Source: a virus
Length of the DNA stretch: 28,619 nt
Strand: one strand, 5' to 3'
Virus record (IMG/VR): IMGVR_UViG_3300044620_000286
Location: 1-28,619 of that record
Below, in pieces: positions 16,721 to 23,572 of the stretch (within the stretch, counting starts at the first letter, position 1; each line of letters opens with the position of its first letter). A model generated the notes under the pieces. It was not told where the DNA came from, made no database searches, and worked only from the letters and a program-made list of their open reading frames with translations. A program made the position numbers and the translations under genes.

Positions 16721-17008
16721 TCACAGACTCGCGGGCTGGCGGTTGGCGGAATGTTTGACCAATGCGTTCAGCACGATTTGATTGGCTGGGCGGCGGCGGC
16801 GCTGCAACTGCCATGTGTAAATCGGCTGTCCCTCGCTGGTTAGTGCGCGATGCCACATGGCGAAAATATAGCCCTCATCGTCTAGCAGCCTCACAAAGCG
16901 GCCAAGATCACCGGGAATTGAATGGGTGGCATCGCTTACAATCTTGGCGACGATGTTGCCTTCCGGCGCGTCCATCACCCATGCAGCAACTTCCTTGGCG
17001 CTATACAT
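16721..17008 (-). CDS. Hypothetical protein (95 aa)
   Basis: Not recognised. It starts M-Y-S-A-K-E-V-A-A-W-V-M-D-A-P-E-G-N-I; a helical first half is followed by L-V-x-L-L-D-D-E-G-Y-I-F-A-M-W-H-like strands and a basic, Arg-rich C-terminus (Q-L-Q-R-R-R-R-P). ATG 17008 is chosen because AAGGA lies just upstream, directly after the stop of the 21-codon mini-gene, so the two are likely translated in sequence. Longer readings to 17194 would run through that mini-gene and its leader and are rejected. Confidence 0.65.
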   Translation of the reverse strand: MYSAKEVAAWVMDAPEGNIVAKIVSDATHSIPGDLGRFVRLLDDEGYIFAMWHRALTSEGQPIYTWQLQRRRRPANQIVLNALVKHSANRQPASL

Positions 17009-17019
17009 TGTGCGTCCTT

Positions 17020-17085
17020 TCAGATCATTGCCAGCAAGGCAAGGCAGATAAACAGGCAGGCCATTGGCAGGGCTTCGCGGATCAT
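17020..17085 (-). CDS. 21-residue hydrophobic mini-protein
   Basis: On the reverse strand the ATG at 17085 follows the leader AGGAGACAACCACA, nearly identical to those of the two flanking small genes, which is the main reason to believe it. The peptide begins M-I-R-E-A-L-P and continues as a 14-residue hydrophobic run with two cysteines (A-C-L-F-I-C-L-A-L-L-A-M-I), enough for one short membrane segment. The stop is followed at once by the AAGGA of the next gene. It could be a real membrane peptide or a leader that couples translation. Confidence 0.5.
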   Translation of the reverse strand: MIREALPMACLFICLALLAMI

Positions 17086-17100
17086 TGTGGTTGTCTCCTG

Positions 17101-17301
17101 TTATCGAGCGTGAGTGGTGCGGGCGAGGCCAGCGGCGACAGCCGCTTCGCGGGTGGGGTATTCGCCGCCATCCCAGCGCAGACCGCGACTGCATACCAAT
17201 GTCAGATCGAAATGCTCATCAATGCTGACCAATGGCGCGTTGACACCATAATGGGCGGGGAACGTGGCTGCCGGGATGTGGCGGATTTTAAAGGCATTCA
17301 T
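17101..17301 (-). CDS. Small hypothetical protein (66 aa)
   Basis: Unrecognised. It has a mixed composition with H-I-P-A-A-T-F-P-A-H-Y-G-V-N-A and a C-terminal W-D-G-G-E-Y-P-T-R-E-A-A-V-A-A-G-L-A-R, a short strand-helix pattern common in phage accessory proteins. ATG 17301 follows GGGAGACGACCACC, one of three matching leaders in this operon. The longer frame to 17463 is antisense to real coding sequence. It lies 40 bases downstream of the previous gene. Confidence 0.65.
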   Translation of the reverse strand: MNAFKIRHIPAATFPAHYGVNAPLVSIDEHFDLTLVCSRGLRWDGGEYPTREAAVAAGLARTTHAR

Positions 17302-17341
17302 GGTGGTCGTCTCCCGTTGTTGGTTGGTTAGTGAAAGCAAA

Positions 17342-17521
17342 TCAGTCGTTGATCCAATCGTGCGCCGCGATGCCAGCCCAATCTTTGGTGCCGCCGCTCT
17401 GCACCTTGGCGGCCTTAAACTGGCCAGCCCAGCCAAACGCAACCGCATATTTGCCGCGCGCAAGATGAGTGATCTTTGCCCATTTGCCGTTGCTGCGGAT
17501 GTATTTTTCGCTGCCGATCAT
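17342..17521 (-). CDS. Small hypothetical protein, first gene of the leftward accessory operon (59 aa)
   Basis: Unrecognised. It reads M-I-G-S-E-K-Y-I-R-S-N-G-K-W-A-K-I-T, then H-L-A-R-G-K-Y-A-V-A-F-G-W-A-G-Q-F and K-D-W-A-G-I-A-A-H-D-W-I-N-D, so it is Trp- and Gly-rich with likely beta hairpins. ATG 17521 follows AGGAGACGACCACA. Being nearest to the control region at 17522-17645, it should be the first product of the operon. Small, orphan and early-placed genes like this often act against host functions, but nothing in the sequence proves it. Confidence 0.68.
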   Translation of the reverse strand: MIGSEKYIRSNGKWAKITHLARGKYAVAFGWAGQFKAAKVQSGGTKDWAGIAAHDWIND

Positions 17522-17645
17522 TGTGGTCGTCTCCTGTAGGGCGCTGCCCCGTTGTTTATGCCATGATACTGCCAGAGGCCCGCCATATGCGTCAAGCATA
17601 AAAATATGCTTGCAGCATTTTATTTTGACCCCTATGGGCAGCGGC
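17522..17645. promoter_or_regulatory. Divergent control region with operator-like half-sites
   Basis: Lies between the leftward accessory operon and the rightward HTH gene. AAGCATA (17594-17600) and TATGCTT (17605-17611) form a perfect 7-bp dyad with an AAAA spacer. Further TATGC half-sites occur at 17557-17561 and 17586-17590; the latter forms a second, 5-bp dyad with GCATA at 17596-17600. On the minus strand TTGACG (17595-17590) overlaps the dyad; a TATCAT at 17568-17563 is 21 bases away, too far for a normal -10. Operators for the adjacent HTH protein are likely; exact promoters are unclear. Confidence 0.6.
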
Positions 17646-17852
17646 ATGAGCAAAATCATGACCCATGCAATGCGTGCCGCTGGCCTAAATGATGTCACGC
17701 TGGCCGCGCTAATCGGCTGTTCGCAGTCGCATATCAACCGGATTCGTAACGGCAAAATGACGCCGCGACGGGTGATGGCTAACGCTATCGAACGCGCTTT
17801 AAGCGTTCATGGCTTGGCCGATGAACTAACCAAAAGGGAGCAAGACGCATGA
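17646..17852 (+). CDS. Cro/CI-type HTH regulator (68 aa)
   Basis: Residues about 10-40 form a helix-turn-helix: A-G-L-N-D-V-T-L-A-A-L-I-G-C-S-Q-S-H-I-N-R-I-R-N-G-K, where Q-S-H-I-N-R-I is the recognition helix, as in Cro-like proteins. There is no dimerisation or cleavage domain, so it is Cro-sized. It sits beside the TATGC/GCATA operator array and probably binds it. The ATG at 17646 has a weak GGGCAG upstream; an in-frame ATG at 17634 would add four residues. It is coupled by an ATGA overlap to the next regulator. Confidence 0.83.
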   Translation: MSKIMTHAMRAAGLNDVTLAALIGCSQSHINRIRNGKMTPRRVMANAIERALSVHGLADELTKREQDA

Positions 17853-18301
17853 CGCTAAAGAACTGGACGCCAGACGAAGATGCAATTCTTACCCGCATGA
17901 TGCAGGCCGGTGACACCTATGCACAGGTTGCAGCCGCTTTGCCGGGCCGAAATATTTCGGCGATCAAATGCCGCGCCTATCGGCTGAATTGCAACAATAC
18001 GCGAGTTGATGGGCGCTGGTATGGCAAGGCTGATGCAACGCTGCGGCAGATGTGGTCGGATGGCGCTACCATTATGGAGATTGCGGATCGGCTTGGCGTG
18101 GCCCACACATCGGTGCGCCGCCGCATTGAGCGCATCAATCTGCCGCCGCGCAAGTCAGCGGTTCGCGCAATCGGCACCGGCTGGGCTGCTAATGATCTGG
18201 CTATTGAGCGCAGCATTCGCCAAGCCACGGCGGCATTCGAGCGCCATTATCGTGACGTAGCAGCCAAGCGGCGATGGCATGTCTGGCAATATGCAGCGTA
18301 A
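17849..18301 (+). CDS. Two-part DNA-binding protein: SANT/Myb-like plus GcrA-like HTH (150 aa)
   Basis: Residues 5-48 (N-W-T-P-D-E-D-A-I-L-T-R-M-M, G-R-N-I-S-A-I-K-C-R-A-Y-R-L) match a SANT/Myb-like fold. Residues about 60-100 (L-R-Q-M-W-S-D-G-A-T-I-M-E-I-A-D-R-L-G-V, S-V-R-R-R-I-E-R-I-N-L-P-P-R) form a second HTH whose W-S-x-G start recalls GcrA, a cell-cycle regulator of alphaproteobacteria. The last 40 residues are basic and helical. It probably regulates phage genes and could act on host promoters; that is inference. ATGA overlap with the upstream regulator; a hairpin terminator follows 8 bases after the stop. Confidence 0.75.
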   Translation: MTLKNWTPDEDAILTRMMQAGDTYAQVAAALPGRNISAIKCRAYRLNCNNTRVDGRWYGKADATLRQMWSDGATIMEIADRLGVAHTSVRRRIERINLPPRKSAVRAIGTGWAANDLAIERSIRQATAAFERHYRDVAAKRRWHVWQYAA

Positions 18302-18886: not shown

Positions 18887-20463
18887 CCCCATAGCCTCCC
18901 AATGATGCGATAATATTTGCCATCGCGTTTGTATGTTATGCCAGTTGGCGGCTTGCCACCGTTTAGGATCGCCGCAACTCCGTCTAGCGTCATGCTAGGC
19001 TTAAGCGCAACGCCGGCATTGCTGGCGATGATGCCAAGCGTGGCCACCGCTTTCTCCCCGGCATAACCTTCGTGCGTCACGGTCAAATATTCTTTGACGC
19101 CAGGATCGGACAGAGCGCCATAATAGGTAACTTCGAGCATATCCTTGCCGCTGGTTTTGCTGGTATGCTTGCGCCAGCGCCAGGACGTGACAGGCATTTC
19201 GGACGGCGCAAATCCCATGATGTCATCGTTGTGCAGCCGGTAGGTTTTAGGCTCTGGCGCGGGAAACTCTGAGCCACAAGCCGGGCAGATTTTCACGCTG
19301 GGATGGCATAGCTCATCGCAAAACTCGCACACCTTCACCGGAACTTCACCGTCGCCTTTGCCGGCTTTGTTTGGCGGCTGCACAGCAGTGATCGGGCCGT
19401 GTGTAGCTACAACGCCGGCAAAGTCTAGAACAAGGCAATCAGCCTTGCCCGGCGCAACGCGAAGCCCGCGCCCTGCCATCTGCACATAGAGTGCCGGTGA
19501 CATGGTGGGCCGCAGCATGGCAATCAGATCAATGGCCGGGAAGTCAAAGCCGGTGGTCAAGACTTGGGCATTGGTCAAAGCCTGAATGCGCCCAGCCTTA
19601 AAGTCGCCGATCATCCGTTCGCGTTCAGCCTTTGGCGTTGTGCCAGTCACGCAATTGGCTGCGATGCCGCGTTCGTTTAGCAGATCGGCAATGTGCTGGG
19701 CATGTTGAATTCCTGTACAAAACAGCAGCCAATGCTTGCGATCCGCGCCAAGTGCCATGATTTCAGCCACAACGGCGGCGTTGTTGTCGTCGGTATCAAC
19801 CGCCGCTTGCAACTCGCTTTCGATAAATTCGCCGCCACGTTTGTGGACGCCATCAAGATCAAAGCGGGCTTTCGTCACCTTGCTTCGCAGCGTTGTCAGA
19901 AACCCCTTGTAAACCAGTTCTTCAATCGTCACCGGATCAATCAGGCCATCAAATAGCGCGGGCTTGTCGGTGATAAGGCCGTGGCCTAGGCGGTAAGGCG
20001 TGGCTGTCAACCCGATAACACGCAACGCCGGATTGATGGCCAGCAAGGCGTTTAGTAACGTCCTATAACCGCCCTCATCCTTGTGCGACACAAGATGGCA
20101 TTCGTCGATAATGACAAGATCAACATGCCCTAGCAGCCGCGCCTTTTCGCGCACCGATTGGATGCCTGCAAAAGTAATCGGCTCTCCAAGCTGGCGCTTG
20201 CCAATGCTGGCGCTGTAGATGCCCAGCGGTGCGCCGGGCCAATGCTCCCGCATTTTGGCCGCGTTCTGTTCAATAAGCTCCTTCTGATGCGTCAACATCA
20301 GCACCCGCGTTTCAGGCCAATTTTGCAGCCCTTCCTTGCAAAGTGTAGCTACAATGTGGCTCTTGCCCGCGCCGGTTGGCAGCACAAGGCAAGGATGCCC
20401 ATCGTTTGAACGAAGCCAATCGTAAAGCTGGTCGATGGCGCGGCGCTGGTAATCACGAAGCAT
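18883..20463 (-). CDS. SF2 DEAD/DEAH-type helicase with zinc ribbon (526 aa)
   Basis: Walker A P-T-G-A-G-K34-S (res 29-35), motif II D120-E-C-H, motif III G-L-T-A-T-P-Y-R and motif VI Q-M-A-G-R-G-L-R place it among UvrB/RecG-like SF2 helicases, specifically the phage DEAD/DEAH group that starts L-R-D-Y-Q-R-R-A-I. A CxxC-x9-CxxC zinc ribbon (C-E-F-C...C-P-A-C-G) follows the helicase core, then a unique C-terminal domain of about 110 residues. It should unwind DNA in replication or recombination. The start at 20463 overlaps the nuclease end by 11 bases; the longer frame to 20496 is not needed. Confidence 0.9.
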   Translation of the reverse strand: MLRDYQRRAIDQLYDWLRSNDGHPCLVLPTGAGKSHIVATLCKEGLQNWPETRVLMLTHQKELIEQNAAKMREHWPGAPLGIYSASIGKRQLGEPITFAGIQSVREKARLLGHVDLVIIDECHLVSHKDEGGYRTLLNALLAINPALRVIGLTATPYRLGHGLITDKPALFDGLIDPVTIEELVYKGFLTTLRSKVTKARFDLDGVHKRGGEFIESELQAAVDTDDNNAAVVAEIMALGADRKHWLLFCTGIQHAQHIADLLNERGIAANCVTGTTPKAERERMIGDFKAGRIQALTNAQVLTTGFDFPAIDLIAMLRPTMSPALYVQMAGRGLRVAPGKADCLVLDFAGVVATHGPITAVQPPNKAGKGDGEVPVKVCEFCDELCHPSVKICPACGSEFPAPEPKTYRLHNDDIMGFAPSEMPVTSWRWRKHTSKTSGKDMLEVTYYGALSDPGVKEYLTVTHEGYAGEKAVATLGIIASNAGVALKPSMTLDGVAAILNGGKPPTGITYKRDGKYYRIIGRLWG

Positions 20464-21436
20464 CAAACGCACTCGCCAAAGCCTGCACCGTCTCATTGAT
20501 CAACTGGCGTGATGTCAGCCCGCCAACGCCATTCCGCAGGCGTGACTGCCCAATCAGCCAAGTGACAGACAAGCCGTCATCGCTGCCTTCCATCTGCCAC
20601 GGCACAAGGTCAGGGTGAAAAACGTGGTCATTACATCCGTCATACTGAGCCTCTGGCGGAATCGCCATGTCCCACCGGGCGCAGTGCCAGGTGCTGTCAT
20701 CTTTCGGCGTTGCGTGGGCGCATGTGCGGCAATTCACTTCCTTCGTCGGCTGTGACTTGTGGCACATCGCCTTTGCGGGACACCAGCCGCATTGATACCA
20801 TGTCGGATCGGTTGAAATAGGGGGGGGCATCCTGTCGGCCAACGCTATTGCCCGGCCTTTGGCAATGGCGGCATCCGCCACGTCTTTGTCATACCGCACC
20901 CGTTCGCAGTGCAGCCGATCATCGTCTTTGCACACCGCCACATAAAGCGCCCGCGTCAAATCCAGCCCGGCCATGTAAACTTGCATCTGCACATAGTGCT
21001 GCCACTTGGACAGGCGAACGCCTTTAGCCGCCAGATCGTCAAAGCTCTTTTTTCCGTGCGTCTTAAATTCTAGCAGATGCTCCGTCTTTGGCGCTTCGGG
21101 AATGCCCAGGCCAATCCCGTCAATGCTGCCGCTAACATGCGCGCCAAAATCAACGCGGTTTTGCTGGCCATGCACAGCGATGCCCACCGCTTCCAGATCG
21201 GCAATAATCGTCGCTTCCTCGCTATGGCCACGGCGGAACAAGCGCAGGGTGCGGCCTTCAAACTGTTCGACAACAGCCCAGCGAAACGATAGCCAAAGCC
21301 ACCGATCACAATGATGGCCAAGCAGGCTTGCGCCAAGGTGCGGGCGTGGCCGTTCACGCTTGGCAGCGTGGTGAGCATCTATCAGGCTTGCAACGGCGCT
21401 TTGATCGACTATAATGACTTCCGGCAGTTTTGCCAT
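20453..21436 (-). CDS. Cas4/RecB-like PD-(D/E)XK exonuclease with Fe-S cysteines (327 aa)
   Basis: Catalytic pattern: S-G-S-I-D106-G, L-L-E123-F-K125-T, and Y-V-Q150-M-Q-V-Y-M. One cysteine at C43 in L-G-H-H-C-D-R-W plus C216, C219 and C225 give the C...C-x2-C-x5-C arrangement of Cas4/AddB-type Fe-S nucleases. A second group (C236, C239, C252, C268) looks like an added zinc site. Such phage enzymes resect DNA ends for annealing recombinases, fitting the Sak4-like gene upstream. GGAGGAGA lies directly before the ATG. A run of eight Cs encodes P-P-P around residue 205. Confidence 0.87.
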   Translation of the reverse strand: MAKLPEVIIVDQSAVASLIDAHHAAKRERPRPHLGASLLGHHCDRWLWLSFRWAVVEQFEGRTLRLFRRGHSEEATIIADLEAVGIAVHGQQNRVDFGAHVSGSIDGIGLGIPEAPKTEHLLEFKTHGKKSFDDLAAKGVRLSKWQHYVQMQVYMAGLDLTRALYVAVCKDDDRLHCERVRYDKDVADAAIAKGRAIALADRMPPPISTDPTWYQCGWCPAKAMCHKSQPTKEVNCRTCAHATPKDDSTWHCARWDMAIPPEAQYDGCNDHVFHPDLVPWQMEGSDDGLSVTWLIGQSRLRNGVGGLTSRQLINETVQALASAFDAS

Positions 21437-21461
21437 GTGTGTCTCCTCCCGTGAACAACTT

Positions 21462-22553: not shown

Positions 22554-22898
22554 TTACACCGCCTTCCGGTAACGTGGTTGCAGTCTGGCATGAGATTTAG
22601 TGGATTCGCTTCGGCCAAGACCGCATATTTCAATGTCGCCCGCTTTTAATGCGCTGCGGATGCGGCCACCAATAGCGCCACCCCATGCGTTATGATGATG
22701 CGGATTTCCGCAGCCGCCAAGCAAAGCAAAGATTCGGATTTCTTCGCCAATAAACGTGCGGCCATGCGGCACATTCTGCAAAAACACGTCAATTTGAGCA
22801 TATGCAGACTGTTTCCAATCATCATCTGCGGCGTCCATGACCCGCGCAATGCCCGCATCTTTTGCGGCAATGCTGGCAAACATATCAACTTGCATCAT
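22554..22898 (-). CDS. Hypothetical phage protein (114 aa)
   Basis: Unnamed. The second half is distinctive: G-E-E-I-R-I-F-A-L-L-G-G-C-G-N-P-H-H-H-N-A-W-G-G-A-I, then I-C-G-L-G-R-S-E-S-T-K-S-H-A. A His-rich, Gly-rich turn next to a basic end suggests nucleic-acid or metal contact. ATG 22898 overlaps the TGA of the ATPase gene (ATGA) and has GGGAG 6 bases before it; a second ATG directly follows. It sits between the Sak4-like gene and the small membrane gene. Confidence 0.72.
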   Translation of the reverse strand: MMQVDMFASIAAKDAGIARVMDAADDDWKQSAYAQIDVFLQNVPHGRTFIGEEIRIFALLGGCGNPHHHNAWGGAIGGRIRSALKAGDIEICGLGRSESTKSHARLQPRYRKAV

Positions 22899-23572
22899 GA
22901 CACACTCCCAATCTTTGCAATGATCGCGCCAAGGTCTGGCGCTTCCCACTGAGACAGCCTGCCGGAACGATCCTTAGCCTGCCAAAGCCCATCGCTGTCG
23001 GTAAGCAGCGCACGGTGGGCGTTGCCATCAGCATCACGTTCGACACGCAGCGCCATCACAAGGTCGAAGAAATATGGCAAACCTTGCGTTAGGCTCTTGC
23101 CCGGCATGGACGCATTGTAAAGAATGCGCCCCATCTCATCCTGAGATTTTTCCAGCTTGGCAGACATATAGACATGCTTGCCGGGCAGATCACGGAAGGC
23201 ACGAATGAGTTCGTTCATTTTGGTGCTAAGTTCGCCATAGGCCGCGCGGCCATCTTTGTTGGCTTTGAGTTCAGCGTTCAGCACCACTTCGGCAACTTCT
23301 GACAAGCTGTCGATAGCCACCGATTGAAAGCCTTTGGCTTCCTCGCTGCCGGTAAGCCACGCATACGCATCGTGCAGATCGGCCAAACTTTTGACTTCAA
23401 TATAAGGCACATCAGCACCGGCAATAGAAAGCAAGCCGCCTTCCGCACTGATTGCCACGACATTGGGCAAGGTCGAAATCAGGCTGGTTTTGCCAGCGCC
23501 TGCCTGGCCATATACGCACAGCTTAACACCATTGGCGGATAGGCCGCCTGTCCTCTTTAGGTTGATAGCCAT
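22895..23572 (-). CDS. RecA-like AAA ATPase, Sak4-type annealing protein (225 aa)
   Basis: Walker A G-Q-A-G-A-G-K28-T-S (res 22-30) is near the N-terminus after a short beta start, then V-A-I-D-S-L-S-E as Walker B-like motif and a compact RecA core lacking extra domains. This short form with Y-G-x-x-G-x-G-K-T-[ST] is typical of phage Sak4/AAA_24 proteins, which anneal single strands with help from an SSB partner. It is the first gene of the leftward replication operon, upstream of the SSB-like protein, nuclease and helicase. ATG 23572 has TTGGAGAAAG upstream; the longer frame to 23686 covers the control region and is rejected. Confidence 0.85.
   Translation of the reverse strand: MAINLKRTGGLSANGVKLCVYGQAGAGKTSLISTLPNVVAISAEGGLLSIAGADVPYIEVKSLADLHDAYAWLTGSEEAKGFQSVAIDSLSEVAEVVLNAELKANKDGRAAYGELSTKMNELIRAFRDLPGKHVYMSAKLEKSQDEMGRILYNASMPGKSLTQGLPYFFDLVMALRVERDADGNAHRALLTDSDGLWQAKDRSGRLSQWEAPDLGAIIAKIGSVS

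Follow-up and report, generated by a model that had tools for sequence, protein, structure and literature searches.

A near-identical ribosome-binding leader before unrelated small phage genes as a candidate early start signal and joint of cassette exchange

Introduction

Why should three tiny neighbouring genes with unrelated products begin with almost the same ribosome-binding leader? The question is raised by 28,619 nucleotides of viral DNA (hereafter the window, i.e. the whole stretch analysed). An earlier note on this DNA considered two causes, copying of the leader or selection for a particular initiation context, and proposed a common translation switch for a set of early genes. Our comparative analysis finds support for both causes. 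With a probability of about 0.7, we interpret the leader as a stereotyped initiation module of early genes that would also serve as a homology joint for cassette exchange, with no dedicated switch. The three genes would have nearly the same leader because it is a standard early start signal of alphaproteobacterial phages and a joint of gene swapping.

Leader copies in the window

A whole-window pattern scan with GGAGACnACCACnATG returned three matches with 0 mismatches, all on the minus strand and all at starts of leftward ORFs (17521, 17301 and 17085; Table 1), where each ATG opens an ORF. Matches with 1–3 mismatches numbered 0, while shuffles expect 1.39 at ≤3 mismatches. The near-identical leader before three unrelated small ORFs is thus borne out, as is the shortened relative before the nuclease start at 21436, which reads GGAGGAGACACACATG. 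Among the window gene starts examined, GGAGAC occurs only in the three small-ORF leaders and the nuclease leader. Three copies in 28.6 kb lie far above background because bacterial genomes seldom contain the exact 14-base pattern, an enrichment to be read in the light of the pattern having been derived from these same three copies. Over 36 bases, the window leaders consist of 73% A+C and 7% T. The predicted unpaired probability of the ribosome-binding site (RBS) is 0.63–0.70 at the three leader starts versus 0.30–0.73 at nineteen other starts, i.e. the ranges overlap.

The earlier note had suggested that these genes form an early, anti-host set. Their arrangement does look like an early leftward operon adjoining a divergent Cro/CI-type repressor gene; the early timing itself we infer. 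The 59-, 66-, 95- and 124-aa products have no Pfam match above the family cut-off and no PHROG. A GcrA/D5-like DNA-binding protein is encoded at 17849–18301, directly 3' of the repressor gene.

Table 1. Features of the leader-bearing region and of the recombination genes in the window
Feature	Position	Strand	Remarks
95-aa gene (MYSAKEVA...)	16721..17008	-	next conserved anchor; starts after micro-ORF stop (AAAGGACGCACAATG)
Hydrophobic micro-ORF MIREALPMACLFICLALLAMI, 21 aa	17020..17085	-	right-hand anchor of the slot
Leader 3 GGAGACAACCACAATG	17083..17098	-	start of 21-aa ORF
Cassette ORF 2 (MNAFKIRHIP..., 66 aa)	17101..17301	-	other phages (L009, L011) have homologues whose RBSs differ
Leader 2 GGAGACGACCACCATG, CAACCAACAACG just before	17299..17314	-	start of 66-aa ORF
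Cassette ORF 1 (MIGSEKYIRS..., 59 aa)	17342..17521	-	different leader in L226
Leader 1 GGAGACGACCACAATG	17519..17534	-	start of 59-aa ORF; varies in relatives
Hairpin B GGGGCAGCGCCCT	17538..17550	-	5' UTR, between AACAAC and leader 1
TATCAT	17563..17568	-	possible -10, assigned by eye
TTGACG	17590..17595	-	possible -35; conserved in all relatives read
GCATA...TATGC inverted repeat	17596..17609	.	possible operator
Divergent Cro/CI-type HTH repressor-like gene	17646..17852	+	HTH_3 2.4e-6, phrog_2328
Cas4-domain exonuclease	20453..21436	-	phrog_1990, 1.8e-102
Shortened leader GGAGACACACATG of the Cas4-type exonuclease gene	21434..21446	-	
Sak4-like ssDNA annealing protein	22895..23572	-	phrog_124, 5.6e-53; candidate recombinase for short-homology exchange

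A variable slot in related contigs

To find relatives, we used the small proteins, the nuclease and the product of the 95-aa neighbour as queries, and the locus was read in 14 of the related contigs. It forms a variable slot with fixed flanks: (i) on the left, the GCATA–TATGC inverted repeat (with variants GCATAAAATTATGC and GCATATTTTCATGC in relatives), TTGACGCAT and usually CAACAACAACGGG; and (ii) on the right, the 21-aa micro-ORF followed by the 95-aa gene. The slot holds 0, 1 or 2 small ORFs. Ten cassette protein types have no significant similarity to one another, and seven cassette ORFs of the relatives yielded no PHROG better than E = 0.009. The micro-ORF occurs in nine DNA variants across 14 loci, all synonymous except for I/L at residue 2. 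This suggests that it is probably real, and its product is predicted to be a membrane microprotein. Further hydrophobic micro-ORFs lie at comparable places in related or other phages (L009:2109-2210; L041:5804; L042:14256; MTPLQSDALAMLALFICIAVLAII; MFDALKAGIASGEWKVVVAFFAALAVLMVI).

The GGAGA(C) core persists in the 14 related contigs, while orthologous starts read GGAGACGATTACAATG, GGAGACACACACCATG, GGAGACAACACATG or GGAGACACACATG. The conserved part of the leader is therefore GGAGA(C) plus an A/C-rich spacer. A fixed 16-base site is ruled out because the spacer from GGAGAC to ATG differs between orthologues in both sequence and length. Leaders within one genome are sometimes more alike than orthologous ones (e.g. 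ACCAC three times in the window and ACACAC twice in L220).

We then compared the joints of the slot. Where loci with unrelated first ORFs have matching leaders, homology spans the leader and ends 3–8 bases into the ORF. Contigs L221 and L225 have 81 bases in common up to the ATG and eight more from the ATG, after which they are unrelated, and L219 and L217 share 56 bases at the joint. Homology blocks of 56–81 bases that end at the start codon before unrelated ORFs indicate common descent of the leader. Many slot pairs with unrelated first ORFs have only the ATG in common at the joint, so other recombination contributes too. At the far joint, a run of 13–25 bases up to the micro-ORF ATG is identical, whether unrelated cassettes or no cassette precede it. 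In the empty slots (L037, L223 and L224), CAACAACAACGGG is joined directly to AGACACACACCATG, the repeat that flanks filled slots; L220, for example, has it on both sides.

Leaders and ORFs also occur in different combinations. The MIGSEK ORF has a leader ending in GACCACA or GATTACA, the GATTACA leader also stands before an unrelated MTTKTLK ORF, and GACGACAG is found before four types of ORF. Not every cassette has the leader, since the first ORF of L228 has GAGGAGAAGACAG and the 66-aa family in L009 and L011 uses other RBSs. We read this decoupling, together with the joints, as the mark left by exchange at short stretches of common sequence.

The leader in other viruses and in bacterial genomes

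The exact 14-base pattern, by which host start contexts were tested, has 25 matches in 299 bacterial genomes versus 9 for a reversed control. The wider core CAAC(n)GGGAGAC is rare in bacterial genomes as well. Host assignment through nuclease homologues led only to metagenome-assembled contigs of scattered phyla, probably misbinned, and capsid homologues were too widespread to be informative. The earlier note would have given up its idea if the leader had proved a generic context shared by the majority of phage or host genes; instead, the leader is absent from most genes of the window and rare in bacterial genomes. Of 81 exact matches in unrelated viral contigs with GC contents of 33–73%, 67 stand at the start of an ORF of ≥50 aa, which clearly marks the pattern as a start context in viruses.

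Three cultured phages have the leader at genome-end gene starts. Sphingobium phage Lacusarx was reached through a 45-base probe; when leader and hairpin were matched together against phage and plasmid records, the hits were weak but pointed to Lacusarx and to CcrPW. GGAGAC stands at 10 of the 25 gene starts in the terminal-repeat region of Lacusarx, typically as CACCGAAACGGGAGACACCAAATG, versus none of the 58 starts in the first 50 kb, a stretch with structural and some metabolic genes (p = 1.3e-6). In Brevundimonas phage Gurke (321 kb), 18 of the 25 starts in 298–312 kb carry the leader, versus 6 of 106 in 40–88 kb (p = 7.5e-12), and in Erythrobacter phage vB_EliS-L02, 12 of 15 starts in 134–150 kb do. 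Whole-record scans placed the zero-mismatch matches of AACNGGAGACNNNNNATG in the genome-end clusters in Gurke and, with one exception, in Lacusarx. CcrPW mostly uses another leader (GCGCCCTGGAG), with GGAGAC at 1 of 30 starts. The genome-end regions of Lacusarx, Gurke and vB_EliS-L02 are presumably transcribed early, by analogy with terminal-repeat phages in general. That a small phage with a repressor gene has this leader in common with large phiCbK-like phages was unexpected. No text on ribosome-binding sites or leaders was found in the genome papers of Lacusarx and phiCbK, and a literature search with the core string gave nothing on phage early genes among the matches listed.

Upstream of GGGAGAC leaders in Lacusarx, a block GACCAGAAGAAAAGxCCTTGACGAATC recurs in at least 8 copies at 121.5–129.6 kb (L364:36500-44600). 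The block, shared by many of the leader starts, is a likely promoter.

Comparison with known systems

By analogy, the closest counterparts of the leader appear to be the Start-Associated Sequences (SAS) of Cluster K mycobacteriophages and the boundary sequences of lambdoid phages. The SAS is a 13-bp element, GGGATAGGAGCCC, present in 11–19 copies (PMC3203893). Like the leader, it is a short, asymmetric, Shine–Dalgarno (SD)-containing repeat a few bases 5' of unrelated non-structural starts (PMC3203893), and the window leader likewise lies directly 5' of the start codons of unrelated ORFs. Both are conserved beyond SD pairing. The SAS is rare in its host; for the leader, the rarity seen is that across the 299 bacterial genomes. 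However, GGAGACnACCACnATG does not fit the SAS consensus, and the leader, whose spacer and length are variable, coincides with the joints of cassettes.

Boundary (linker) sequences of lambdoid phages (Clark et al. 2001; Susskind and Botstein 1978, both as cited in PMC3029335) are described there as short conserved edges of exchangeable genes and proposed sites of homologous recombination. At our locus, too, a short conserved sequence flanks variable genes at a fixed position. The boundary here differs in being a ribosome-binding leader, and the joints and empty-slot forms are what point to recombination.

The large phiCbK-like phages Lacusarx and Gurke have the same core, AACGGGAGACAC-ATG, clustered at gene starts of the terminal repeat or genome end; they differ in genome size, and many such Lacusarx genes also have their own repeated promoter-like block. 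The PeSL of T4-type phages (Arbiol et al. 2010) are reportedly mobile regulatory cassettes with a stem-loop before small genes that may aid shuffling. The likeness is a repeated regulatory sequence with a stem-loop before small genes. In the window, inspection by eye showed no promoter for each cassette, and a GGGGC-type hairpin (hairpin B) was seen in the first 5' UTR only.

Interpretation and alternative explanations

The proposed module would comprise, in order, an A/C-rich, poorly structured lead-in (CAAC repeats), GGGAGAC as a strong SD core, a short spacer rich in A and C, and the ATG. Host ribosomes could use it directly, which would make a dedicated regulator unnecessary, and initiation would presumably be strong. 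Since almost all accessory genes of the slot follow such a leader, adjacent cassettes have short direct repeats in common where they join. Recombination between these repeats would allow unrelated small ORFs to enter, leave or replace one another behind an early promoter that stays constant. The recombining enzymes are plausibly those that the phage itself encodes, namely the Sak4 annealing protein and the Cas4-type exonuclease; SSAPs are named as a source of phage mosaicism in PMC5499656.

Convergence alone is an unlikely alternative to this reading. It would make the leader the best unstructured SD context for alphaproteobacterial hosts, arisen repeatedly at strongly expressed genes and with no role in exchange. 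The A/C-rich composition common to the leaders and the many ORF-opening matches in unrelated viral contigs of widely differing GC content are consistent with it, but it does not account for the concentration at accessory and genome-end genes, the rarity in bacterial genomes or the homology blocks that end at start codons. Less probable still is the trans-acting switch of the earlier note, in which a phage or host protein or a small RNA would bind the leader and turn the early genes on or off together. The note's broader statement, that the leader is common to unrelated proteins beyond the SD, is supported. In favour of the switch, GGAGAC and the flanking CAAC show more constancy than SD pairing calls for and mark particular gene sets, and for the analogous SAS element a role as a binding site is left open by its authors (PMC3203893). 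However, the spacer differs among orthologues so that no fixed site beyond the SD core remains in the relatives, an Rfam search of the region gave a chance-level match only, and unrelated phages that differ in gene content have this core before many further genes, all of which argues against a dedicated switch for these three genes.

The resemblance of leaders within one genome might instead have arisen because one leader was recently duplicated in tandem or copied by gene conversion, with no functional meaning. Leaders of the same genome are indeed sometimes closer than orthologous ones, but similar leaders are kept in many genomes and in unrelated phages, and the ORFs behind them are unrelated, so no gene duplication accompanied the copying; we regard this account as very improbable. 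Hardly credible is a signal for early mRNA decay. RegB of phage T4 is an endoribonuclease that cuts GGAG in early leaders, and a GGAG within an unstructured A/C-rich early leader resembles its sites, but REGB_T4 (PF10715) has no match in this phage or in the records of four other loci, nor in Lacusarx, Gurke or vB_EliS-L02.

The preferred reading, i.e. start signal plus exchange joint, could be extended. The constancy of AC after GGAG and of CAAC before it exceeds the need of SD pairing, and further selection is possible. CAAC(n)GGGAGAC-A/C-ATG, sometimes with the fixed hairpin GGGGCANNGCCCC in front, might be an early-gene element of alphaproteobacterial phages of different sizes that is recognized beyond the SD, whether by S1, by some factor of the phage or by a modified ribosome; we hold this to be rather improbable. 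If true, the element would give early mRNAs priority during takeover. For the long-standing question of what directs phage mosaicism to particular sites, the locus offers a concrete example at the level of sequence, in that a swapped gene would land behind a working start because the joint is the ribosome-binding leader. In poorly annotated alphaproteobacterial phages, AACGGGAGAC-ATG, with or without the hairpin GGGGCANNGCCCC, could serve as a marker for early accessory genes, possibly including counter-defence genes.

Hairpin-bearing leaders

The pattern GGGGCANNGCCCCACN{0,14}GGAGA matched 101 stretches of viral contigs. At 95 of 102 distinct hairpin-plus-SD sites, loci of the related phages included, a start codon follows within 12 bases and opens an ORF of ≥20 aa; some loci contain several such sites. 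A second hairpin, GGGCCGGCCACAGCGCCGGCCC, lies between a stop codon and the leader that follows it, both in the relatives L027, L218 and L221 and in otherwise different contigs such as L126, L246 and L260. A dispersed linker GGGGCANNGCCCCAC..GGGAGAC..ATG with conserved hairpin sequence stands before small ORFs in many viral contigs, among them L258, L270, L317, L345, L246 and L257, and some of them have several copies. Upstream hairpins with other stems before GGGAGA starts occur near the shuffled level. A relaxed-stem scan for covariation gave one compensated stem (GGGCC/GGCCC, L362) versus eight GGGGC, too thin for a structured RNA.

The first hairpin linker occurs in only one of the 299 bacterial genomes; its three copies there lie no more than 1.3 kb apart in all, suggestive of a mobile element. 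On this bacterial chromosome (G027:C1:76338-77636; L355-L358), the linkers stand in a row, one of them before a 296-aa ORF whose product looks, by eye, like an ArdC-type antirestriction protein.
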